From positions 1-64,000 of the forward strand of contig JAKVCY010000063.1 in the NCBI GenBank assembly GCA_022448425.1: a DNA stretch of 64,000 bases, read 5' to 3'. Source of the DNA: Thalassotalea sp. GTDB lineage: Bacteria; Pseudomonadota; Gammaproteobacteria; Enterobacterales; Alteromonadaceae. Shown here piece by piece: positions 8,416-36,905 of the stretch. Position numbers and translations under genes: made by a program. The stretch's first letter is position 1. The number at the start of each line of letters is the position of its first letter. The notes below the pieces were generated by a model. The model saw only the letters and a program-made list of their open reading frames with translations, made no database searches and was not told the origin of the DNA.

Positions 8416-9720
8416 TTATTGGTGCATGTAATCGAAGGTTAAATTCGATAACAATTCAACACCGAGCTTCATGCCACTTTCGTCAATTTCAAATTCTGGC
8501 GTGTGATGGCCTGGTGCCTCATTAACTGGTACATCTAAACTCTTACCGCCAACGAATAAATACAGTCCAGGCACTTTTTCTTGGAAGAAAGAAAAGTCTT
8601 CAGCTCCAGTCACCGCTTTTGTGAGAACGGTATTTTCATCACCTGCTGTTGATTTTAGCGTAGGCAACATCTGTTGCATTAGCGATGGATCGTTGTAAGT
8701 GATAGGGTATTGGTAATCCAGAGGTAACGTTACCTCAGCCGTTGTATTCATGCTTTCTGCAATGTTCGTTGCTTTACGATGAACCGCTTCATGAATATGT
8801 TTACGAATCTCAGGATTAAGTGAACGAATAGTACCAACAAGCTCGACTTCACTTGGGATGATGTTTGAGCGGTTACCGCCTTTAATCATACCGACTGAAA
8901 CAACGGCTGCACTGTCGATAAGCTCTACTTCGCGGCTAACAATAGTCTGTAAACCCATTATCATCTGCGCTGCTGAAACGATTGGATCGGCACTTAACCA
9001 AGGGTAGGCGCCATGTGACTGCTTACCTTTAATTACAATGCGATATGGATCTACGGCAGCCATAATCCCTTCTTCTTTATAGCGCACAGTACCAACATCT
9101 TGTGCAGAGCTGATATGAAGACCGAAGATTACGTCGACATCGGGGTTCCTCAATACGCCTTCTTTGACCATGACTTCAGCACCACCTACTTCTCCTCGTG
9201 GAGCACCTTCTTCAGCCGGTTGGAAGATAAACTTCACCTTGCCTTTGAGTTGATCTTTTTTCTCAGTGAGTATCTTTGCAGCACCCATCAACATTGCTAC
9301 ATGGGTATCGTGACCACAGGCATGCATGACCCCTACATCCATTCCTTCATGAGTGGTTCTCACTTTCGAAGCGAAAGGTAAATCAACCGATTCTGTCACC
9401 GGTAGCGCATCCATATCTGCGCGTAGAGCAACAACAGGGCCTGGTTTACCAGAGTCTAATACTGCTACAACACCTGTTTTTGCAACGCCAGTTTGAACCT
9501 CCAAACCAAGCTCGTTTAGGTATTTTGCGATTGTTTTCGCGGTTTCAAACTCTCGATTGGACAGTTCTGGGTTTTCATGGAAATGGCGGCGCCATTTAAT
9601 AACTTGCGGCTCAATATCGGAAGCCATTGCAGAAACTTGTGATTTGAAATCGCTTGCTAGCACAGGAAACTGGCATGCTAGCGCAACAGAAGTTGCAAGC
9701 AGTAGTTTTTTCATAGTCAT
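8416..9720 (-). CDS. Exported M20-family amidohydrolase
   Basis: 434 residues. An N-terminal signal peptide (KKLLLATSVALACQFPVLA) sends it to the periplasm. The M20D signature HACGHDTH lies at about residues 133-140, the EE pair (PAEEGAPRGE) near 169, and HHTPEFEI near the end carries another metal ligand. Members hydrolyse N-acyl amino acids, hippurate-like amides or similar conjugates with two divalent metals. The substrate cannot be told from sequence. ATG at 9720 or 9714 are both possible. It is probably monocistronic. Confidence 0.9.
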   Translation of the reverse strand: MTMKKLLLATSVALACQFPVLASDFKSQVSAMASDIEPQVIKWRRHFHENPELSNREFETAKTIAKYLNELGLEVQTGVAKTGVVAVLDSGKPGPVVALRADMDALPVTESVDLPFASKVRTTHEGMDVGVMHACGHDTHVAMLMGAAKILTEKKDQLKGKVKFIFQPAEEGAPRGEVGGAEVMVKEGVLRNPDVDVIFGLHISSAQDVGTVRYKEEGIMAAVDPYRIVIKGKQSHGAYPWLSADPIVSAAQMIMGLQTIVSREVELIDSAAVVSVGMIKGGNRSNIIPSEVELVGTIRSLNPEIRKHIHEAVHRKATNIAESMNTTAEVTLPLDYQYPITYNDPSLMQQMLPTLKSTAGDENTVLTKAVTGAEDFSFFQEKVPGLYLFVGGKSLDVPVNEAPGHHTPEFEIDESGMKLGVELLSNLTFDYMHQ

Positions 9721-10306: not shown

Positions 10307-10894
10307 CTACCAGCCTTCTACGCTATCCATGTCAGGCAGCTGGTGTGCAATCCCCTTGTGACAGTCGATACAAGATTTTTCGCCGCTAGCGAGCGAAGTG
10401 GAGTGCATTGCCGCAGCTCTATCGCTTTGTGCGGTAAAGTCCATGTAGTCGAAATTGTGACAATTTTGGCACTCTAAGGAGTCGTTTGCTTTTAACCGCG
10501 CCCATTCGTGCTCAGCTAATCGCTTTCGATTCGCTAGGCACTTCTCTCGAGTATTGATTGTGCCAAATATTTTGCCCCAGACCTCTTTAGAGGCCTGCAT
10601 TTTACGTGCAATTTTGTTGGTCCATTCGTGCGGTACATGACAATCTGGACAGGTTGCTTGCACACCGGATCGGTTGGTGAAGTGAATAGTTGGCTGTACT
10701 TATTGGTACACGTTATCTTGCATTTCGTGACAACTGATGCAGAAAGCTTCAGTATTAGTCGCTTCAAGAGCGGTATTGAATCCGCCCCAAAAGATGATAT
10801 CCGCGACAAAACCACCAAGCACTAGAAAGCCTAAGCTGCAGTGAACGCTGGGTCTTCACATGGTATACCATGCTTTTAGCAACATCTTCTTCAT
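10307..10894 (-). pseudogene. napC: napC: tetrahaem quinol dehydrogenase, two in-frame stops
   Basis: From ATG at 10894 (GGGGG upstream) one frame encodes a full-length NapC (195 codons) but with TGA at 10856-10858 and TAA at 10700-10702. The first stop falls in the short N-terminal region before the membrane helix (…[15 protein letters not shown]…), the second between haem sites (…NVYQ*VQPTIHF…). All four CxxCH sites survive (CISCH, CPDCH, CQNCH, CIDCH). Intact NapC takes electrons from menaquinol or ubiquinol and passes them to NapB/NapA. The stops should abolish function. Neighbours napA, napD and napF are broken too, so real decay is likelier than a read error. Confidence 0.92.
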
Positions 10895-10903
10895 GCTTGC
10901 CCC

Positions 10904-11380
10904 CTATTGCTGCTGAGACTTCTGTTTCATTAGCTTGTGCATATCGACAAAAGAGTTTTCCACTAACGGTTTGGACTCCGTCTGATTTACATGGCATTGG
11001 TTACAAAAATACCTTCTTAGAGAAAGCTCTGCTAAAAAATTGCCTTCTCGGTCTATGTAATGGGTGACGCTCACCATAGGCGCTAGCGACTCGGCAGTAC
11101 GTTGTCGGCTATGGCATGCGATGCACTTATTGCTATTGAGGTTAACCTCGTAACCACGAATCGTATGAGGAATCAGCGGTGGTTGCATGGGGTAATTACG
11201 CATTTGTACTTTGTCATTGTTAATGACTTTTGGAATGCCTTTTGTAGGTTGCTGTTCTTCAATTGGTGTATGGTTTCGTAGAGTAGCAATGTTAGTCTTT
11301 TCATCGTTAGCCGACACCGACTGCATAGCCATTGGCGAACATAATAATAAGGCGAAATAAGTCGTTAATAAGTATTTCAT
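10904..11380 (-). CDS. napB: Dihaem cytochrome c NapB, small subunit of periplasmic nitrate reductase
   Basis: 158 residues and apparently intact. A signal peptide at the start (MKYLLTTYFALLLCSPMAM) exports it. Two CxxCH haem sites, CIACH and CNQCH, are present, with distal histidines expected in IPHTI and VTHYI. It would relay electrons from NapC to NapA in the periplasm. The ATG at 11380 has AAGGGG upstream, and the gene starts 10 bases after napA. With NapA and NapC broken it has no evident partner here. Confidence 0.92.
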   Translation of the reverse strand: MKYLLTTYFALLLCSPMAMQSVSANDEKTNIATLRNHTPIEEQQPTKGIPKVINNDKVQMRNYPMQPPLIPHTIRGYEVNLNSNKCIACHSRQRTAESLAPMVSVTHYIDREGNFLAELSLRRYFCNQCHVNQTESKPLVENSFVDMHKLMKQKSQQQ

Positions 11381-11390
11381 TCGTTGCCCC

Positions 11391-13805
11391 TTAAACTTTC
11401 TCAATGCGCACAGCACATTTCTTGAAATCTGTTTCTTTAGAGAGTGGGTCTGTCGCATCTAAGGTCACTTTGTTGACAAGTCTACTCACGTCAAACCAAG
11501 GCATATAAACCAAACTTTTTGGTGGTTTATTTCGGCCTCGTGTTTCAACTCGCGTTTCCACTTCGCCACGGCGGGAGATAATTTTTACTGCATCGCCGCG
11601 ACGTAAATTTCGCTCTTTAGCGTCATCAGGGGGTAAGTAAACTAAGGCGTTAGGCATAGATTTGTGTAACTCTTCAACACGACGAGTCATGGAGCCTGAA
11701 TGCCAATGCTCGAGCACTCTGCCAGTTGAAAACCATAAATCGTAAGTTCTATCTGGCACTTCTGCTGGCGGCACATAAGGCAGAGCAAAATAACAGCTTT
11801 GCCATCAACTACTGGCCAACGAAGACCCCTTTCTTGGTGGTATCGGTCGTAAGGTGCGAGGTCATGCGCTTTGCCTCGCCCAAAACTTGCGTACTCTTCA
11901 AACAACTCTTTTTGCAGATAGAAACCAAAGTCACAAGATTCGTGATTTAGTCTGTCCTCGGGAATTTCATCTAATGAATATTTGTTAACCTGTCCGTTAG
12001 CATAAAGTACTTCGAATAATGTTTTCCCTTTGTACTCTGGGTTTTTGTCTTGAATCTCTTTGTCCCAAACTTCTTCGACTTCCAAACGTTTCGAAAATTC
12101 AACCAGTTGCCAAAGATCAGACTTTGCACCTTCAGGCGCTTCAACCATTTGATACCAAGCTTGGGTTCTTCGTTCTGCGTTACCATAGGTTCCTTCTTTT
12201 TCTACCTACATTGCAGTTGGCAGAATTAAATCTGCGGCTTGTGCAGTAACTGTGGGGTAAGGATCTGAGACAACGATGAAGTTTTTCGGATTGCGATAGC
12301 CAGGGTAACCTTCTTGGTTGATGTTAGCTGCCGCTTGCATATTGTTATTACATTGCACCCAATAAAAATTAAGTTTGCCATCTTTCAACATACGGTTTTG
12401 TAATACCGCGTGATAGCCAGGTTTTGGTGGAATGGTGCCTTTCGGTAACTTCCATTTTTTTCTGATATTTCACGATGCTTGGGATTGTTCACCACCATGT
12501 CTGCTGGCAAGCGATGAGAAAAAGTGCCAACTTCACGTGTTGTACCACAGGCCGATGGTTGTCTTTTGAGTGAAAATGGACTATTACCAGGCGTCGATAT
12601 TTTGCCGGTTAATAAATGTATGTTGTAAACCTAGTTATTTGCCTAAACACCACATGTATGTTGGTTGAAGCCCATGGTTCAGAACGAACACACTTTGCGA
12701 TTTGGGTCGGCATATAGCTCGGCTAAATCAATGAGGTTCTGCTTTGGTACATGAGATAGTTGAGACACGTAACCAAGCGTATAAGTACTCACAAACTTCG
12801 CATATTCATCAAAGTCAATTGAACTCGAACCACTTGCTTTGGCTGCGTTTTTGGTTCTCTTTTCAAGTGGATGGTCGGGTCGTAAACCATAGCCAATATC
12901 TGTATTACCCTTGGTAAAACGCGTGTGCTTGTTAACAAAGTCTTTGTTTACCTTATCGTTTTGGATAATGTAATTAGCAATGAAGTTTAATATTGCTAGA
13001 TCAGTTTGCGGCTCGACTATCATTCCGTTGCCAGCTAAATCAAAGTTTCTGTGTTGGAATGTAGAGAGCACTGCAACTTTGACATGCTTTGCACTTAATC
13101 TTCTGTCGGTGATTCGGGTCCATAGAATAGGGTGTATTTCTGCCATATTTGAACCCCAAAGCACCATTGCATCAGTGGCTTCTATATCGTCGGAGCACCC
13201 CATAGGTTCATCGATACCAAATGTCCGCATAAAGCCAACCACAGCGGATGCCATACAATGGCCAGCGTTGGGGTCGATGTTGTTTGAGCGAAAACCAGCT
13301 TTCATAAGTTTGGCTGCTGCATACCCTTCATGCACTGTCCATTGAACAGAGCCAAACATGCCTAATCCTGTTGGACCAACGTTCCGTAATGTTTCTTTGG
13401 CTTTTTACTCCATGAGATCGAAAGCTTGCTCCCAAGATATCGGAGTAAAGTCGCCTTCTTTGTCATATTGACCATTATTCATGCGTAACATTGGGGTTGT
13501 TAAGCGATCCTTGCCGTACATGATTTTCGACAGAAAATAGCCTTTTACGCAATTGAGGCCTTTGTTTACTGGCGATTTTATATCATCATGGGTGGCTACG
13601 ACTTTGCCTCCATTACCCCTACATTGATACCGCACCCGGTTCCCCAGAATCGGCAGGCCGCTTTATCCCATTTTATTTTGGTGAGGTCACTTGCGGTAAT
13701 TAAATTGGATGTTTGTACAGGCACGCTGATACCTGCAACTGATGCCGCGGCTGCAACCGCATTTGCCTTAATAAAATCTCGACGGTTCATATTCATATCG
13801 TTCAC
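11391..13805 (-). pseudogene. napA: napA: periplasmic nitrate reductase catalytic subunit, multiply disrupted
   Basis: Fragments in several frames together cover NapA, from the twin-arginine signal ([11 protein letters not shown]) to the C-terminal end ([15 protein letters not shown]). Lesions read directly: Trp replaces the second cysteine of the iron-sulphur motif (CRFWGTGC, codon 13644-13646); a one-base frameshift near 13611-13616; TAA at 13405-13407; TGA at 12679-12681; TAG at 12643-12645 and 12631-12633; a frameshift in the A/T run at 12455-12461; TAG at 12206-12208; and a deletion plus frameshift near 11790-11806 that removes about 33 residues before ALPYVPPAE. Intact NapA holds Mo-bis-MGD and one [4Fe-4S] cluster and reduces nitrate to nitrite. 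It cannot be made from this copy. The start is GTG 13805 or ATG 13796. Confidence 0.96.
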
Positions 13806-13808
13806 CTG

Positions 13809-14092
13809 TTAGTTTACCTGTGTGAGCTCAACGTGCTCAGTTTCGTTTAGGCATTGGTGGTAAACCGGCGAAATACTAAAAAACTCGTCGGTTAGGTGTA
13901 TTTTTCAATAATTTGAGCAATCCCTTTTTGGGTATCAGCTTCGACAGTCAAAACGATTTTTCCTTCTTCACTGCAACCGTGCACCTCTGCACCATTAAAC
14001 TGGTTAATCAATTCACTTAACGCTAAGGTATGATTAGGAGGTGCTTGCGCGACAAAACTCGCGACGTGATATTCTTGATTTGTTTTTGTCAT
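13809..14092 (-). pseudogene. napD: napD: NapA-specific chaperone, frameshifted
   Basis: ATG at 14092 opens a NapD-like frame (HVASFVAQAPP…GAEVHGCSEEGKIVLTVEADTQKGIAQIIEK) that hits a stop at 13892-13894. The missing end, including the family's SPVYHQCLN motif, continues in another frame to a TAA at 13809-13811. One base lost from an A-run near 13907 explains it. NapD binds the twin-arginine signal of NapA before export. The truncated form lacks the last strand of the ferredoxin-like fold and is probably non-functional. Confidence 0.88.
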
Positions 14093-14094
14093 TA

Positions 14095-14675
14095 TTATCG
14101 CTTCCCTGGGCATTGCTTTTGATTGTTTAGAATCGAGTTGTTTTCAGCTAAGCTCTCTGTATTCTGTTTAAACGCAAGTGCTGAAGTAGGGCAGGTGCTA
14201 ACGCATGCGCCACACTGCGTGCATAAGTTTGTATCAAGTGATGGTTTGGCACACCTGCCTGTGAGTAGCTAAAGGTGATGGCTCTGCTGTCACAGACATC
14301 TTGGCAGCTTTGGCAAAAAACGCCTTTGTTAGTAAAGCATGCCGTTTCAATTGAAATCTGGTGAGACCAAGGTTTTTTGTTTGCTCGATCCAATGTGGGT
14401 TTAAAAAGAGATTGCTCACATACGGCTTCGCATTGACCACAGAAAGTGCATTCATCGGTGCTAAAGTCGACGAATGGAAATCCCGCTTTATCCCGCTGTA
14501 TCACCTTCGTTTCACATTGCTCAACGCTACGATTACAATGGATACACTCTTCAATGAAGGTTTGTTCGCTAATCACCCACGGAAGTCGTGCAGGCGCAAC
14601 AGTAGATGCAGCATCATAAGACGCGATACTGCCTCTTAGTAATTTTCTGCGAGCAGGACTTTCAAGCACTGACAT
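14095..14675 (-). pseudogene. napF: napF: ferredoxin-like nitrate reductase accessory protein, frameshifted
   Basis: The frame from ATG 14675 encodes the first NapF [4Fe-4S] sites: CIHCNRSVEQC (third Cys replaced by Ser), CTFCGQCEAVC intact, and CQSCQDVC. It then drifts after QAGVP and ends at 14148. The last site (CTQCGACVSTCP) and the natural end (PTSALAFKQNTES…) lie in another frame reaching TAA at 14095-14097, which abuts napD. A single lost A near 14240 explains the shift. NapF is a cytoplasmic iron-sulphur protein involved in NapA maturation. Only the frame change and the Cys-to-Ser are seen directly. Confidence 0.88.
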
Positions 14676-14707
14676 GAGGATGCCTAATTAAGTTGGCGAA
14701 GCTGGCG

Positions 14708-14836
14708 TTAGGACGTTGGCGGGCCTGTCAGAATTTGGTTTATCCAAACGATAAAGCCATAACTACCAACAATAATGGTGGCTAGGATAGGACCGAGAAA
14801 CACTGTGATAAATATAAAAATGTTTCTCTCATACAT
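14708..14836 (-). CDS. napE: NapE small membrane protein (start uncertain)
   Basis: 42 codons from ATG 14836, too short for ordinary ORF calling. One membrane helix ends in the family motif GSYGFIVWINQILTGPP, which matches NapE/TorE proteins. It is first in the napEFDABC order. Upstream of the ATG the same frame continues with coding-like residues (KTENSEQEK) but shows no ATG/GTG/TTG with a ribosome site, so the natural start may have been lost. Its role in nitrate reduction is not established even where intact. Confidence 0.72.
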   Translation of the reverse strand: MYERNIFIFITVFLGPILATIIVGSYGFIVWINQILTGPPTS

Positions 14837-15084: not shown

Positions 15085-17252
15085 CTGATGTAATAACTCC
15101 AACAAAATTAGCAAGCTATAAACATCAGTTAGCCACGAAACAGCACCGAAGTACGATTTTTTTGGAAGGCTCATTTCAGTGGTTATCGTCGTGGTTAAAC
15201 AGGGTTGAATGCCTTGACGTTAGCGCTATTGATTTGGTGTTCAGTGATCAAGCGTTACCGTTCGAATCCTTGAGTTATAAAAACTATCGTCACCACTTAG
15301 GCACCGAGAATAAAACACTGTTATTTGCTGATAGTGGCTTTAATCTTGATGCGCTGTCTGCATTGTCGGGAACGCTCGTTGCAGGCGGCACATGTTATAT
15401 CTGGTTGCCCGATACACAATCTTTTACTAACAGTCACTTTTACAGGTATTTAAAAAGGCATATCGCGTCTCACGATGATGTTTTGCTTATTAGTGAAAAA
15501 GGTACAGATGAAAAAGACACAGATGAAAAAGGCGCTGGCGAAAGCGACTTTAGTGAATTGGCAGCAGCTGATATACCTTCTAGTGAGGTAGTAATCGCTG
15601 ATGTTAAAAAAAGTGGCAGTAGCGAAAAGTCGCCAGACCTTGATGAAGATTGGTTGAAGGTAGATGGTGCGACACAAGAGCAGCAAGTTGCCATCAGCAC
15701 CATAGTTAAAAACTTGGAGAAGCCTGCGCAGCGCTCCTCTGTCGTGCTGACCGCTGATAGAGGTCGTGGTAAGTCATCAACGCTGGCGTTAGCGCTCAGT
15801 AAGTTACTTTTTGCAAGTGAGCTTCCAATCCGGGTCGTTGTCAGTGCTCCGCACCGGATGGCATTGGGCGTATTTTTTACAGCATTAGCCAAGCGCCTAT
15901 GTGATGCGGTACAACAGTCAGACAGCTTTTTTTGGCGCGATCACCAAATCGAGTTTGTGCCGATAGACGGTATTGTACGTGAGCAACCAAAAGCAGATTT
16001 ACTCATCATTGATGAAGCGGCGGGAATACCTGTGTATCTGCTCGACAAGCTTAGCGAGCATTACGCAAAGTTGTTATTTGCGAGCACGATTTATGGCTAC
16101 GAGGGGGCTGGTAAGGGATTTACTAATAAATTTCTTCCTCTATTAAAGCGTCGCTTTAAAAAGTTAACGCAGCTACATATAAACCAGCCAATTCGCTGGG
16201 CTCAGAATGATCCTCTTGAACAATTTTTGTTTGATACCTGCTTACTTGATGCAGAACTTCCTGAGCTTACTGGTGAATCGGTAGCAGAGAATGTGAGCTA
16301 TCAGTCATTGTCTGGGCAGGCACTTGCCAACAATGATAAGTTGTTAAAACCATTGCTTGCGATACTAGTGACCGCGCACTACCAAACTAAACCCAGTGAT
16401 TTGAAGTTACTACTTGATGACCCTGCAATCTCTGTTATCGCGCAGTTTAGTGGCGAGCAGTTGATAGGAGTCGCCTTGTTGGCAGAAGAGGGCATACAGG
16501 ATGAAGAATTAGCACAAAGCGTGCTAAACGGCCAGCGTCGAGTCAAAGGGCATATGGTACCGCAAGCGTTATCTCAGCAGTTGCAAATAGGATCGGCAAT
16601 AAGCTTGCGATATTGCCGCGTAATGAGAATAGCAATCCATCCAGAGTTACAAGGATATGGGTATGGAACAGCACTACTCGAACAGGTGAAGAAACATGCT
16701 GATTCCTTAGCATATGACGCAGTCGCCACTAGCTTCGCTGCATCATTTAGTGTTACGAAGTTCTGGCTTACCAGTGGGTTTCTGCCAGTAAAGTTAGGTT
16801 TTAGCCCTGATGCGTCAAGCGGAGAGCACTCGCTTTTACTCCTAAAGCCACTTAGTGCAGAAGCGATTGCATTGTCCGAGTTTTCAGCCAGCGAATTTTA
16901 TGATGCTTTTTGTATGTGGCTTAGTGATGAGTTCAAGTCGCTTGATTATCGACTTGTTGCCCTGTTATTAGCGAGCATGCCAACAAAGTTCAGACCAGAG
17001 CTAATTGAGCGACAACAACAAAAACTTTCCGCTTTTACTCAAAATGCTTCTTTGTATAGCATGGCTCGTGGGACTATTAGCTTGTGGTTGAGAATACGGA
17101 TACATACTGAAAACATAGAGCTGTTTCTGCCGCTAATTGCAAAGGCGCTTATGCTAAAAACAGATAAGCAGGTATGTCAGGACTTTGGTATTTCAGGTAA
17201 AAAGGCGTTGTACCAGCATTTTCAGTGCTTGATAAAAGATACTAACGATTAA
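15081..17252 (+). CDS. tmcA: tRNA(Met) cytidine acetyltransferase
   Basis: 723 residues. An N-terminal TmcA/DUF1726 region is followed by an RNA-helicase-like ATPase with Walker A ADRGRGKSS (about 225-233) and the box LLIIDEAAGIP. A GNAT acetyltransferase domain (MRIAIHPELQGYGYGTALLEQ) and a C-terminal tRNA-binding part complete it. It acetylates C34 of elongator tRNA-Met, which prevents misreading of AUA. The linker at about residues 139-153 holds a short tandem repeat (TDEKDTDEKG; 15-base DNA unit), a place for length variation. It is monocistronic, with a strong terminator after it and divergent from nap. Confidence 0.95.
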   Translation: MTDVITPTKLASYKHQLATKQHRSTIFLEGSFQWLSSWLNRVECLDVSAIDLVFSDQALPFESLSYKNYRHHLGTENKTLLFADSGFNLDALSALSGTLVAGGTCYIWLPDTQSFTNSHFYRYLKRHIASHDDVLLISEKGTDEKDTDEKGAGESDFSELAAADIPSSEVVIADVKKSGSSEKSPDLDEDWLKVDGATQEQQVAISTIVKNLEKPAQRSSVVLTADRGRGKSSTLALALSKLLFASELPIRVVVSAPHRMALGVFFTALAKRLCDAVQQSDSFFWRDHQIEFVPIDGIVREQPKADLLIIDEAAGIPVYLLDKLSEHYAKLLFASTIYGYEGAGKGFTNKFLPLLKRRFKKLTQLHINQPIRWAQNDPLEQFLFDTCLLDAELPELTGESVAENVSYQSLSGQALANNDKLLKPLLAILVTAHYQTKPSDLKLLLDDPAISVIAQFSGEQLIGVALLAEEGIQDEELAQSVLNGQRRVKGHMVPQALSQQLQIGSAISLRYCRVMRIAIHPELQGYGYGTALLEQVKKHADSLAYDAVATSFAASFSVTKFWLTSGFLPVKLGFSPDASSGEHSLLLLKPLSAEAIALSEFSASEFYDAFCMWLSDEFKSLDYRLVALLLASMPTKFRPELIERQQQKLSAFTQNASLYSMARGTISLWLRIRIHTENIELFLPLIAKALMLKTDKQVCQDFGISGKKALYQHFQCLIKDTND

Positions 17253-28144: not shown

Positions 28145-28653
28145 TTACTTCGGTCGATAGGCAAATTCGATTCTATTGCCACTTGGCTCGCGTATCATCA
28201 TATGCACGGTAGGCCCTTTTCCATTGAGTTCTGGTTCGAATTCAATAACAACACCGTCGACCTTCTTGAAACGTGCGGCTAACTCATCTAGAACGCTTCA
28301 TTTAGCAACGGTAAGTGCTAAATGATGCAAGCCCACGTTGTTTTTTCGATCGAATTTAATGAATGAATCAGGGTTAGTCACTTGCCAAAGCGTCACGAAT
28401 ACTTTGCCATCGGTAACGAATGTTGCTGGATAATTTGGTCTGCCGTCTGCCGTCTGCCGTCTGCGACTCGCCAGCCTCAGGTATCAACAAAGAAGGCTAC
28501 TGACTTATCTAACTTAGAAACTGTTAATGCCACATGATTTAAGCCTTGTGTCATTACTTTAGTGCTACTTTTACTCTCCGAGGAGTCGTTGAAAGCTAGA
28601 CCTGTTGTTGAAAAACTAATCAAAATAATAAACATGTATAGTTTTTTACTCAT
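28145..28653 (-). pseudogene. Exported VOC (glyoxalase-like) protein, disrupted
   Basis: From ATG 28653 the frame gives a signal peptide (MSKKLYMFIILISFSTTGLAF) and the first VOC motif GLNHVALTVSKLDKSVAFFVDT, then TGA at 28477-28479. A run of four GTCTGCC units (28438-28464) shifts the frame. After it the protein continues in another frame (YPATFVTDGKVFVTLWQV…GLHHLALTVAK), meets a second TGA at about 28296-28298, and ends GNRIEFAYRPK at 28145. Two repeat units instead of four would restore the frame. VOC proteins bind a metal and act on varied small molecules; the substrate is unknown. Clearly non-functional as read. Confidence 0.9.
28438..28464. repeat. Heptanucleotide tandem repeat (GTCTGCC)3.9
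   Basis: Almost four copies of GTCTGCC lie inside the VOC gene. Unit length is not a multiple of three, so each slip changes the frame. Confidence 0.95.
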
Positions 28654-28831
28654 CGATATTACCTTACTTATAGTTATGGGGAGTTGTGGACAATACGCTT
28701 GATAGCAAGCCAAAAAAGCTTGTACGCATTGTGATTTAAATACTTGCTACGAATTACACACTGTATGCATGGCAACGACTCTCTTGCTCCATTGACCAGT
28801 TCAAGTTCATAGACCCTTCGATAGGCATTGA

Positions 28832-32047: not shown

Positions 32048-32358
32048 CTTACTAACCTTTTCGCAAATGTTATCTGCTAATGTGCTTTACTAGTGTGTTG
32101 AGCTCAGCTGATTATGTTGTTGGTGTGTGCGCTATAATCTCAATGCGTATATTAAAGTAGGCGTAAAAATCGCTAAAACATGCCTATTTGTATCAATTTT
32201 GTACTAATAGTTTGTTTCTAATATGAATTCGATGTTAATTTAGCAACAGACGATTTGGCTGTGAATGCAGTTAATGACGGTCTATGTGATGTTTTTATGC
32301 GGGCTAGGGCTCTATTTAGTCAGTTGACTTATTGTTGTTATAGATGTGAGCAAGTTAA
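32048..32358. other. Gene-free interval upstream of the AraC pseudogene
   Basis: About 310 AT-rich bases. It has a weak TAGGC/GCCTA hairpin at about 32158-32186 but no clear promoter boxes and no ORF. Confidence 0.45.
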
Positions 32359-33291
32359 ATGAGTAAAGCGTTAATTAAACAACTTATTGAAACATCGGTG
32401 CATACAGATGGGTTGGTAGAAACAGGCATCAAAGGTGCGTAATTGTTTCGAGTTACTGAATCAGTTCGATGTGCGCCAGCGGTTTATGAGCCGTCAATTA
32501 CAGCGATAGTTAATGGTCGTAAGGAAGCTGTTTGGGATGGTACACGTCGTATATATGATTGCAGTGAATACATTTGTTGCACCATGTCAATGCCAGTGGA
32601 AACAGGCACTCCATGTGCGTCTATAGAAGAGCCACTGTTAGGTGTTTACATCAGATTAGACGTTAAAATGATGACTGAAATAGCACTTGAATTAGAGAAC
32701 GTAAATGGGTCTCAACGTAGGCTGAAAACAGATGACTCTTACTCTGCAGGGTTGGGCTCAAATACCAATGACTCTGAACCACAAGGTTTCTCGCTAGCTC
32801 ATTGGGATTTGGCATTCACTGATGCTCTGTATCGCCTGCTACAGCTGGTTGGTAATGATACGGATGTTCATATGCTGGCTGAAAGTCGGCTTCGTGAACT
32901 TTACTATGCAGTACTAAAAGGTGGGGCGGGGCAAGCGACAAGAGGCGCTTTTGGGGTTGGTAACGAAATCGCCCGCTCTATCAAGTTTTTGTCTACTTGT
33001 TTACATGAAGTTGTAACCATTGAGGATATCGCTGACCAAGTTGGAATGAGTCGCGCGGTGTTCCATCGTAAATTTAAACAAGCAACGAACATGTCACCTA
33101 TTCAATTTGTAAAAGCGATGCGACTCAATAAGGCCGCTGTAAAAATTGCTTCTGGCATAAACGTAAATGTTGCTGCTATGGAGGTGGGTTACGCTAGCTC
33201 ATCTCAATTTAGCCGTGAATTTAGGCGTATGTACGGCTTGTCACCTAAGCAGTGGAGCCAACATCAGCCACATCACACATACCAGCGATAA
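32359..33291 (+). pseudogene. AraC-family regulator with a premature stop at codon 28
   Basis: ATG at 32359 opens MSKALIKQLIETSVHTDG…ETGIKGA and meets TAA at 32440-32442. The same frame then runs on uninterrupted for 282 codons: the AraC N-terminal domain (FRVTESVRCAPAVYEPSITAIV) and two helix-turn-helix units (VTIEDIADQVGMSRAVFHRKFKQ, VNVAAMEVGYASSSQFSREFRR). The full AraC_N family start lies before the stop. A CAA-to-TAA change would explain it. Restart from TTG 32443 is possible but would remove the domain edge. The rest is conserved, so the mutation looks recent. Confidence 0.8.
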
Positions 33292-33465
33292 TTACAGTAT
33301 CAATAGCCTCCTTGTACCCAGTTTCGACTTGCAAGTTGCAATGCAGATTGCATTTTTCTTCTCCAAAACTCTCTATTTGGCTCAGCGCATAGACTACTTT
33401 TTCAACTAAACCTTTCTTTATATTGATTAATTTATCTTGGTGTTGAACTTGCGTTCCAAACCTAC

Positions 33466-33497
33466 GTGACGATGTCGTTTACCACCAACATCGTCAC
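33466..33497 (+). promoter_or_regulatory. Hairpin in the leader of the CCXG/PEP-CTERM-like gene
   Basis: GTGACGATGT pairs perfectly with ACATCGTCAC over 12 bases, ending 30 bases before the ATG. AACTTGCGT occurs on both sides of it (about 33445 and 33507). It could be an operator or an mRNA structure. Confidence 0.5.
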
Positions 33498-33527
33498 ATC
33501 AGGTTAACTTGCGTAAGGAGCGGTCCA

Positions 33528-34211
33528 ATGAAACGTGTTAGTGAAAGTTTATCCAATCTTTTAATGCATATTACTCGGATGTTAGTGCTATGGCTGTCAA
33601 TTGCATGGTTAACCTCTCTGCCAGCAAACGCTGGGCTCATTACTTATCAAACCCAAGATTACAATGGCGCTAGGCTTTTCACTGATTTACGTGATGAGTG
33701 GTTTGCGCTCGTTGGCGCAGGTGCGGTAGTTACCGATCGTGATATCCGTGAATTCAATCAAGTTTACTCTGGCAACCGAACATTCAATCGTTTGGTCCTC
33801 GATGTTGATATGGAGGGTTATGGCGAGTGGACATTAGATATTGGCCTTGATGCTGGTTTGGGTGTTCAGGCGTATTTTAATGACCAATCAATTTACAAAG
33901 ACACAAGTGATATCTGGTGGAATTACAATTGGAATCATGGCGATATGGTTAATCTAAACAATCTCGTTATGCCGACAGGGGAGCACCGCGTTGAACTTTA
34001 TTGGATTGAGATGTGTTGTAATGGCTTCAACAGTATTCGGCTGACAGATGAATTGAACAATACCGTGGCATTTCTGAGTGCAGAGGTGATGGCAAGAGCT
34101 CAAATCAGTGAACCAGATACTATTGCCGTGTTGGCCTTTGCGCTTATTTTTGGTGCTTCCACGAGGTCAATGCGACTGTTCAGAAAAGGTGAGAAAGACG
34201 CTAACAAATAG
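33528..34211 (+). CDS. CCXG family PEP-CTERM-like exported protein
   Basis: 227 residues. A signal peptide ends near PANAG. The body has TYQTQDYNGARLFTD, WWNYNWNHGD and the pair ELYWIEMCCNG, which match my memory of the CCXG family of PEP-CTERM proteins. The C-terminus has a SEPD motif, a hydrophobic helix (TIAVLAFALIFGAS) and basic residues, a sorting signal of PEP-CTERM type with Ser in the first position region. Such proteins are processed by an EpsH exosortase and placed at the surface with exopolysaccharide. No exosortase is in this window. AAGGAG precedes the ATG. Confidence 0.75.
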   Translation: MKRVSESLSNLLMHITRMLVLWLSIAWLTSLPANAGLITYQTQDYNGARLFTDLRDEWFALVGAGAVVTDRDIREFNQVYSGNRTFNRLVLDVDMEGYGEWTLDIGLDAGLGVQAYFNDQSIYKDTSDIWWNYNWNHGDMVNLNNLVMPTGEHRVELYWIEMCCNGFNSIRLTDELNNTVAFLSAEVMARAQISEPDTIAVLAFALIFGASTRSMRLFRKGEKDANK

Positions 34212-34303
34212 AGGAAGTGAGAGAGCTGGGAAGTGAGAAAGTCTCAAGCCACGAAACGACCTTACGTGTCACTGGCAAGTTAATTGAAAGTTTAACTTAG
34301 TGT

Positions 34304-34347
34304 AAAACCCAAAACACGTTGGAGAGTGCCAACGTGTTTTGGGTTTT
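34304..34347. terminator. Strong bidirectional terminator
   Basis: A perfect 19-base stem starting AAAACCCAAAACACGTTGG around AGAGTG, with A and T tracts on both sides. It lies between the convergent CCXG gene and srmB. Confidence 0.9.
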
Positions 34348-34363
34348 ATGTGTTTGATGCTTT

Positions 34364-34387
34364 ATACCAATTACATAAAATTGGTAT
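34364..34387. repeat. ATACCAATT/AATTGGTAT hairpin
   Basis: A nine-base inverted repeat with a six-base loop, placed directly after the terminator. The same words flank the element near 480-550. Confidence 0.6.
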
Positions 34388-34417
34388 TAATGGTGAATCA
34401 CACAAGCATATAGCGAC

Positions 34418-35668
34418 TTACTTCTTCTTGGCCTTTTTAGTGGCTTTCTTCGCTATCTTTTTCGCTTTTGCTTTCTTTTGAGCCGTCGTTTTCTTAACTT
34501 TTGGCTTCTTCATTGGCACGCGAGCTTCTTTGTTTTTTGGACGCAATTCTTCGATCACGCGGCGTTGAAGTCGTTCTTTGGTATAACGTTCAATTTTAGC
34601 CACTGACGCCATATCATGTGCTTCTACAAGAGAAATTGCAGTACCTTTATTACCTGCACGTCCCGTTCTACCAATGCGGTGCAGATAAATATCGGCTTTG
34701 TATGGCATATCGAAGTTAATCACATGGGTAATGTCGTCGATATCTATACCGCGTGCAGCAACGTCAGTTGCAACTAACACACTAAGTTCGTTTGTACGAA
34801 TGCGTTCAACAGCGCTGTTACGTTTGTCTTGCGGCATTTTGCCCTCAAGCCAAACACATGGAATATCGGCACCGTAAAGCTTGCCAGATAGAAACTGAAC
34901 AGTTTCGCGCTTATTAGCGAAAACAACCGCACGTTCTACTTCTTCTTGTTTTAACACATTAAGAAGTAACTCGAGCTTGTGCTCTTTGTTGTCAGCTAAA
35001 TGAATCCACTGATGGATTTTCGCTTTTTCTTTGCGCGAAGGGTTTGACTCTAGGTACACTGGCTCATTAAGGAGCTCTTTGGAGAACTTAATAACACCAG
35101 CGCCTTCTAGCGTTGCTGAGAACAACATAGTCTGTTTACGCCAGCGTGCTTCACCAACGATGCGATTGATGGTTTCAGCAAATCCCATGTCAAGCATACG
35201 GTCGGCTTCATCAAGAATTAAGATTTCAATCTCACGTGCATCAAACTGCTCGTTCTCAATGTACTCCATCAAGCGACCTGGTGTCGCAATCAGCATATCA
35301 GTAGTTGCTGTTAAAATATCTTTGTGGCTACCGTAGTTTACGCCACCTGTGATCACACCAGTTTTAATATTGGTGTGAGACGTTAATAACTCGTTCTGCT
35401 CGCTGATTTGCAATGCAAGTTCACGTGTTGGTGTTAGTACTAACACGCGAGGGAACCCAGGCTTAGTGCGCGGGTAGTCTAGTAAATGCTGTGCTGCAGG
35501 TAAAAGGAACGCGGCTGTTTTACCGGTACCTGTTGGCGCAGAAGCAAGAATGTCTTTACCGTCCATCGCCTCTGGCAGCACTAATTGCTGAATAGACGTG
35601 GGCTTTTTAAAACCTGCTTTTTGAATACCACCGATCAGATCTTGGTCTAAATCAAACTGCTCGAACAT
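34418..35668 (-). CDS. srmB: DEAD-box RNA helicase, SrmB-like
   Basis: 416 residues. All helicase motifs are present: Q motif, motif I APTGTGKT (about 44-51), DEAD (150-153), SAT (LFSATLEG), and RIGRTGRAG. The LFSATLEGAGV…KIHQWIHLADN…KLELL region and the FDRPSIQ-like start resemble SrmB. A Lys-rich tail (last 40 residues, repeated KKAK) should bind rRNA. SrmB helps early 50S assembly. It is monocistronic and convergent with the CCXG gene. Confidence 0.9.
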   Translation of the reverse strand: MFEQFDLDQDLIGGIQKAGFKKPTSIQQLVLPEAMDGKDILASAPTGTGKTAAFLLPAAQHLLDYPRTKPGFPRVLVLTPTRELALQISEQNELLTSHTNIKTGVITGGVNYGSHKDILTATTDMLIATPGRLMEYIENEQFDAREIEILILDEADRMLDMGFAETINRIVGEARWRKQTMLFSATLEGAGVIKFSKELLNEPVYLESNPSRKEKAKIHQWIHLADNKEHKLELLLNVLKQEEVERAVVFANKRETVQFLSGKLYGADIPCVWLEGKMPQDKRNSAVERIRTNELSVLVATDVAARGIDIDDITHVINFDMPYKADIYLHRIGRTGRAGNKGTAISLVEAHDMASVAKIERYTKERLQRRVIEELRPKNKEARVPMKKPKVKKTTAQKKAKAKKIAKKATKKAKKK

Positions 35669-35757
35669 GGAAATTACCCATCAATAAGAAAATGACGGCG
35701 ATTATATACGTTATTACTGCGTAAGTCGCGTAATAGAGGGGATTTAAAGGACTGGTT

Positions 35758-36905
35758 TTAGAAAAAAACGAGTGGATTAACGTCGTAGCTCACCAACAAA
35801 TTCTTGGTTTGTTGATAGTGTTCTAATGCCATTTTATGGGTTTCCCTGCCGACGCCTGATTTCTTATAGCCACCAAATGCTGCATGCGCTGGATACATGT
35901 GATAACAGTTTGTCCAAACGCGGCAAGCTTCAATTTTTCGGCCCACGCGGTATGCGCGATTGGTGTCACGTGTCCACACTCCTGCGCCTAAACCAAATTC
36001 GGTGCTGTTAGCTAGCTTGACTGCTTCAGATTCATGTTTAAAGGTTGAAACAGAAATTACAGGACCAAAAATTTCTTCTTGGAATACGCGCATATCGTTT
36101 TTGCCGTAAAGCAATGTAGGTTTGACGTAGTAGCCATTATCAAGTTTATCGCCCAGTGCTTCAGCCTCGCCTCCCGTCAACACTTTTACGCCTTCTTTTT
36201 TGCCAATATCTATGTAGCTCATGATCTTGTCGAATTGTTCTTGTGACGCTTGCGCACCGACCATAGTATCGGTATCAAGTGGGTTGCCGCGAACGATCGC
36301 TGTTGTGCGTTCTACCACTTTTTCGATAAAGGCATTTTAGATATCTTCTTGGACAAATAAGCGAGAAGGGCAAGTACAAACTTCACCTTGGTTAAAGTAG
36401 GCTAGTACAGCGCCTTCGATACATTTACTTAAATACTCGTCTTCAAAATCTAAGACGTCAGAGAATAATAAGTTAGGAGACTTTCCGCCAAGCTCTACAG
36501 TTGATGGAATAATGCTTTCTGCTGCGCATTTTAAGATGTGACTACCGACAGGTGTTGAACCGGTAAATGCGATTTTCGCAATGCGGTTGCTGGTCGCTAA
36601 TGCTTGACCAGCCTCTTGGCCATAACCATTAACAACATTTAAAACTCCAGCTGGCAATAAATCACCAATGAGTTCTAGTAACACGAGAATTGATGCAGGT
36701 GCTTGCTCTGCTGGCTTTATAACCACACAGTTACCAGCAGCTAGTGCCGGGCCAAGCTTCCATGCAGCCATTAAAATAGGGAAATTCCATGAAATAATTT
36801 GTCCAACTACACCTAGAGGTTCATGAATATGATAAGACATAGTGTGCTCGTCAAGTTCAGCTAAAGAACCTTCTTGTGCGCGGATACAACCTGCAAAATA
36901 GTGTG
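35758..36905 (-). pseudogene. Aldehyde dehydrogenase remnant: 5' end deleted and internal stop
   Basis: The frame holds most of an AldB-like aldehyde dehydrogenase: [30 protein letters not shown] and, in the C-terminal part, FGGYKKSGVGRETHKMAL. A TAA at 36337-36339 splits it in frame. The catalytic Cys context is [10 protein letters not shown]. About the first 110 residues are absent: similarity stops at HYFAGC (about 36903), where the sequence abruptly becomes an AraC fragment on the other strand. NAD-dependent aldehyde oxidation is the family role. This copy is dead. Confidence 0.9.

Follow-up and report, generated by a model that had tools for sequence, protein, structure and literature searches.

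Evidence for recent inactivation of the napEFDABC operon in a Thalassotalea-like marine gammaproteobacterium

Background

The question raised by this locus is whether an entire operon for the periplasmic nitrate reductase has been caught in the course of decay, or whether its interrupted reading frames have some other origin. The locus lies in a 64,000-nucleotide stretch of Thalassotalea sp. DNA, referred to here as the window, which corresponds to contig 177 of a draft genome of 4.38 Mb in 216 contigs, with a completeness of 93.33% and a contamination of 4.55%. Loss of Nap is itself already known. For example, one report describes how Yersinia pestis biovar Medievalis lost nitrate reduction through a premature napA stop (PMC12445494); the case described there is a single nonsense mutation in a pathogen, whereas the window carries 13 lesions in four genes of a marine bacterium. 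Similarly, napA deletions belong to the lineage-specific decay described for Salmonella Typhimurium ST313 lineage 3, which is read there as part of a lifestyle change from intestinal to systemic (PMC8018540); for the window genome, in contrast, no host is known. Among the titles listed by searches of a partial literature collection, directed at periplasmic nitrate reductase pseudogenes and at Thalassotalea napA and nitrate, none concerned this operon.

Results

Organization of the operon and its relatives

The six genes lie on one strand, the minus strand, from 14836 to 10307 of the window, in the order napE, napF, napD, napA, napB, napC. Coordinates, strand and gene order are those of the original prediction. 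The closest of the relatives searched, designated G002, has 93–94% DNA identity to the window over 18 kb around nap and served as the reference for the features:

14708–14836, minus strand: napE, 42 aa, open, with zero amino-acid change relative to G002; the G002 ortholog matches Pfam NapE (PF06796)
14095–14675, minus strand: napF remnant, with a one-base deletion adjoining 14247 and Cys50 of the first cysteine motif replaced by Ser; the G002 ortholog passes TIGR00402
13809–14092, minus strand: napD remnant, with a one-base deletion adjoining 13905; the G002 ortholog falls below the cut-off of the NapD model
11391–13805, minus strand: napA remnant, with five stops, three one-base deletions, an in-frame 87-bp deletion and Cys54 replaced by Trp; the G002 ortholog passes TIGR01706 at 1578.9 bits
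11797–11806, minus strand: site of the 87-bp deletion, the single remaining copy of a 10-bp direct repeat of which G002 has two, 87 bp apart
10904–11380, minus strand: napB, 158 aa, open, with both CxxCH motifs kept; its match to the NapB model is below the cut-off, as is that of G002
10307–10894, minus strand: napC remnant, with stops at 10858 and 10702 and four CxxCH motifs kept; the G002 ortholog passes TIGR02161

G002, an uncultured Thalassotalea and a sister species of the window organism, shares the nap gene order and the neighbourhood: a TmcA-like gene flanks the operon at one end, and pdxH and an amidohydrolase gene flank it at the other. DNA matches to nap were found in all seven same-genus genomes examined, that is, the window's own and G001 to G006, each species being represented by one genome. 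In G001, G002, G003 and G005 the napF, napA, napB and napC genes are open, whereas four of the six nap genes are broken in the window; napA is free of stops in each of G001 to G006. Decay common to G002 and the window was ruled out, since the nap frames of G002 are open.

Lesions and their spectrum

A codon-by-codon comparison with G002 identified 13 lesions in the nap genes of the window: seven premature stops, five one-base deletions and the 87-bp deletion. The sequence had been predicted to carry at least eleven, in napF, napD, napA and napC, and these are exactly the genes that are broken. The napA stops begin at 13407 (replacing Gln), 12681 (Trp), 12645 (Trp), 12633 (Leu) and 12208 (Trp), and the two in napC, at NapC codons 13 and 65, replace Arg (10858) and Glu (10702). 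The three one-base deletions of napA adjoin 13608, 12457 and 11786. Its 87-bp deletion, at about 11806, matches the spacing of the two direct repeats still present in G002, an arrangement that would fit replication slippage between them. All length changes within the nap genes are deletions.

The haem sites had been described as still legible, and CxxCH is indeed kept at two of two sites in NapB and four of four in NapC. One cysteine is gone from each of NapA and NapF. The lost Cys54 of NapA belongs to the Fe-S motif and aligns with a cysteine conserved in the solved NapA structures 3ml1 and 2nya; we take it to be an Fe-S ligand. The napA of the window, which contains stops, matches TIGR01706 only as two separate segments, scoring 698 and 379 bits against a cut-off of 930.55 that neither reaches, so that the window has no open napA that passes this model with a complete Fe-S cysteine motif.

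Trp codons had been expected at four of the stops. This holds for three (12679, 12643 and 12206), but the napC stop at 10856–10858 replaces Arg in the alignment with G002. A special role for Trp codons was considered and rejected: three of the five transition stops at Trp is the expected outcome (P = 0.31), because the G002 nap genes offer 52 G-to-A routes to a stop at Trp codons against 80 C-to-T routes at Gln and Arg codons. GC-to-AT transitions account for five of the seven stops. Among polarised base changes on the window branch, the nap genes have 34 GC-to-AT and 19 AT-to-GC, compared with 9 and 13 in the flanks (P = 0.077). This excess is only suggestive, being in line with AT-biased mutation, as reported for bacteria (PMC2936535), rather than proof of it.

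Relaxed constraint and timing

Up to ten outgroup genomes were used to polarise the amino-acid differences between the window and G002; stop codons were left out, as was the M3 peptidase gene, which had no outgroup. In napF, napD, napA, napB and napC, 58 missense changes were derived in the window and 10 in G002, with 19 ambiguous, whereas the six flanking genes gave 21 and 21, with 38 ambiguous (Fisher P = 1.4e-4); the TmcA-like gene, tmcA, contributed 15 and 13 of these. Relaxed constraint is thus confined to the affected branch. The ratio of window to G002 changes was 14:2 in napF, 2:0 in napD, 31:5 in napA, 5:1 in napB and 6:2 in napC, and at columns invariant among the outgroups the nap genes had 34 window changes against four in G002. 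The comparison with the sister indicates that the neighbouring genes remain under purifying selection.

The pairwise dN/dS ratio, proposed beforehand as a check, showed only a modest difference: at 0.095 (0.075–0.121) the nap genes stand above the seven flanking genes (0.067, 0.053–0.083), with overlapping intervals. So modest a rise is expected if the loss was recent. If the two branches are taken as equal and constraint as wholly absent once the function was lost, nap has been unconstrained for roughly 14% (10–19%) of the window branch since the split from G002. This estimate used the share with stops included, 64:10, which is nearly equal to the stop-free share of 58:10. With equal base rates it predicts about four stops, compared with the seven seen (Poisson P = 0.12).

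Intactness of other genes and the possibility of error

For a local background, 81 kb of the G002 contig supplied 72 non-overlapping ORFs (80 aa or longer) for comparison with the window. In 49 of them, five nap ORFs and 44 others, the match spanned 80% or more of the ORF. The remaining 23 (19 without a match and 4 covered below 80%) were unscored, so the counts exclude losses by large deletion and differences in gene content; 16 of the 19 start before the shared stretch and 3 lie inside it, while one of the four under-covered ORFs reflects the end of the window. Only one of the 44 other ORFs (14,712 codons) proved truly broken, against four of the five nap ORFs (1,500 codons, 13 lesions). Five of the 44 had been flagged, and in four of these the change sits upstream of the probable true start. 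In pdxH, for example, the G002 ORF has 22 additional codons at the 5' end; since the 217-aa pdxH frame of the window is open, the stop must fall within this extension. The exception is a glyoxalase-family gene (PF00903) at 28145–28748 on the minus strand, open in G002 but broken in the window by a 14-bp insertion, apparently a 7-bp tandem unit added twice more, and with two stops in the G002 frame. Separately, at about 32100–36900 and 41300 of the window, three G002 ORFs (contig C4) have no match and three have partial matches in an otherwise shared region, pointing to gene-content differences between the two species.

These data bear on whether the lesions are errors of sequencing, assembly or binning, with the operon intact in the living organism. 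The draft state and contamination level of the assembly leave room for such errors, and the five one-base deletions, some beside short homopolymers, are of a kind that they could produce. However, errors do not typically take the form of seven nonsense substitutions or of an 87-bp deletion, and the other ORFs tested are almost all intact. Random errors would also need to target nap alone to yield missense changes that are one-sided and fall at invariant positions. Around nap, moreover, collinearity between the contig and G002 is largely maintained, and the identity to G002 is similar for a second contig of the bin (93.3% over 4.2 kb). We therefore regard error as very unlikely.

napB and the TmcA-like gene

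Two of the six genes, napE and napB, are still open, which counts against a reading of full decay. Nitrate reduction might accordingly be gone while part of the operon still serves some purpose, napB or napE providing, for instance, a small cytochrome or a membrane protein. The lack of amino-acid change in napE is compatible with this, as is the low synonymous divergence of napB (dS 0.064, against 0.15–0.44 in the other nap genes). However, the changes derived in napB lean towards the window, three of them falling at invariant columns, and mutation may simply have missed both genes so far, given their small size. The low divergence also extends over 10904–11460, a tract that covers napB and differs from G002 at 15 of 557 sites, compared with about 8–9% on either side; similar patches occur elsewhere, for example at 8800–9099. 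The tract may reflect chance or recombination, and continued use of part of the operon appears even less probable than error.

The neighbouring TmcA-like gene evolves fast, with 92.1% protein identity to G002, compared with 97.5–99.4% for the other flanking genes, and has a 15-bp in-frame length difference at 15516. In G001 (L023, 2275–4748) the TmcA-like gene beside nap is split into two ORFs (507 and 302 aa) and is possibly broken; it is single in G002, G003 and G005.

The legibility of most of the coding sequence could suggest that readthrough, frameshifting or an altered code still yields a working enzyme, but this can be dismissed with near certainty, as all three stop triplets occur among the lesions, nearly all other tested ORFs read cleanly under the normal code, five frameshifts would need bypassing, and the resulting NapA would lack a motif cysteine and 29 residues.

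Remaining nitrate metabolism

A molybdopterin oxidoreductase search of the 93%-complete assembly found no second nap or nar copy. Besides the broken napA, it identified two open genes, of 946 aa and 776 aa (contig 29), neither of them a long narG-like gene. The 946-aa product carries a C-terminal BFD-like [2Fe-2S] domain; its best match is a formate dehydrogenase model, and it falls below the cut-offs of that model and of the NasC and NasA models. Our reading of it as NasA is based on context: nirB is its neighbour, and close by is a gene for an ABC ATPase that by eye looks like, and is presumably, nrtD. Both nirB and an open moaA pass their cut-offs. Given these open genes and the broken nap operon, the organism probably still assimilates nitrate through the NasA-like reductase and NirB but has lost the periplasmic route.

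G002 encodes a 709-aa molybdopterin oxidoreductase (contig C6; L052, 8029–10158) without a counterpart in the genome of the window, and an 8-kb query of its surroundings gave only matches shorter than 90 bases there. The gene and its surroundings are probably missing from the assembly and possibly lost. Co-loss of other molybdoenzymes was not adopted as an explanation, since the neighbouring sequence likewise gives only such short matches and the stretch may be an assembly gap. By the same token, the assembly could lack a second nitrate reductase that the organism has.

In nine genomes, the search for a classical NrfA gave only partial Cytochrom_C552 matches in five (19–28 bits, over the family cut-off as scored), covering fewer than 80 of 438 positions in open frames of 491–793 aa, and that for a classical NarX/NarQ-type sensor gave only a weak PilJ match in three, in frames of 1430–1454 aa. 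Neither helps to explain the nap loss. A plasmid search returned only distant nap operons, at 60–80% identity, and nothing on the lesions.

Frequency in the family

In an even sample of 395 family genomes out of a larger group, napA exceeded the NapA cut-off in 93 by the tally; the list shows 92 such matches, all of them free of stops. The one not accounted for may be the genome of the window itself, whose two pieces are singly below the cut-off. Among the matches listed, which stop short of the weakest, the napA of the window is the only one with stops; the other stop-bearing match, in genome G402 (159.6 bits, 897-aa frame), is far below the score of a napA. Decay caught in the act is therefore rare in this sample.

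Discussion

We conclude with high confidence that the region is a recently inactivated napEFDABC operon, encoding the periplasmic nitrate reductase, in a Thalassotalea-like marine gammaproteobacterium. The prediction of whole-operon decay is borne out by lesions concentrated in nap, an open sister operon and a one-sided missense excess, in which napB leans the same way. With an open ortholog in the sister and no functional copy found in the 93%-complete assembly, the locus has the properties of a unitary pseudogene operon.

From the sequence, the organism would be expected to have lost periplasmic nitrate reduction. The common ancestor with G002 presumably had a working nap operon, and a first inactivating mutation would have removed selection on nap. 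Neutral accumulation would then have added further stops and small deletions and, through slippage between the direct repeats, the larger deletion. The cell would no longer reduce nitrate in the periplasm but may still assimilate it. In Thalassotalea sp. PS06, NapABCDEF, NasAB and NirBD are reported together with a lack of anaerobic growth (PMC7564069), which could mean that the genus can dispense with Nap. Nothing in these data shows that selection, as opposed to drift, drove the loss. Tentatively, and with the balance of probability somewhat against it, the lineage might have given up periplasmic nitrate reduction and kept assimilation as part of a niche shift, for example away from low-oxygen or particle-associated life. 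If so, the pair with G002 would let that shift be dated and studied.

This is an unusually well-resolved but ordinary gene loss, and a new instance of known Nap loss. In a family with a patchy distribution of napA, it represents a clear halfway stage from an intact nap to a missing one, and the open sister operon provides a natural yardstick for the spectrum of neutral mutations and for how fast an operon decays. It is also a warning that similarity-based detection of nap in metagenomes can overstate nitrate reduction.
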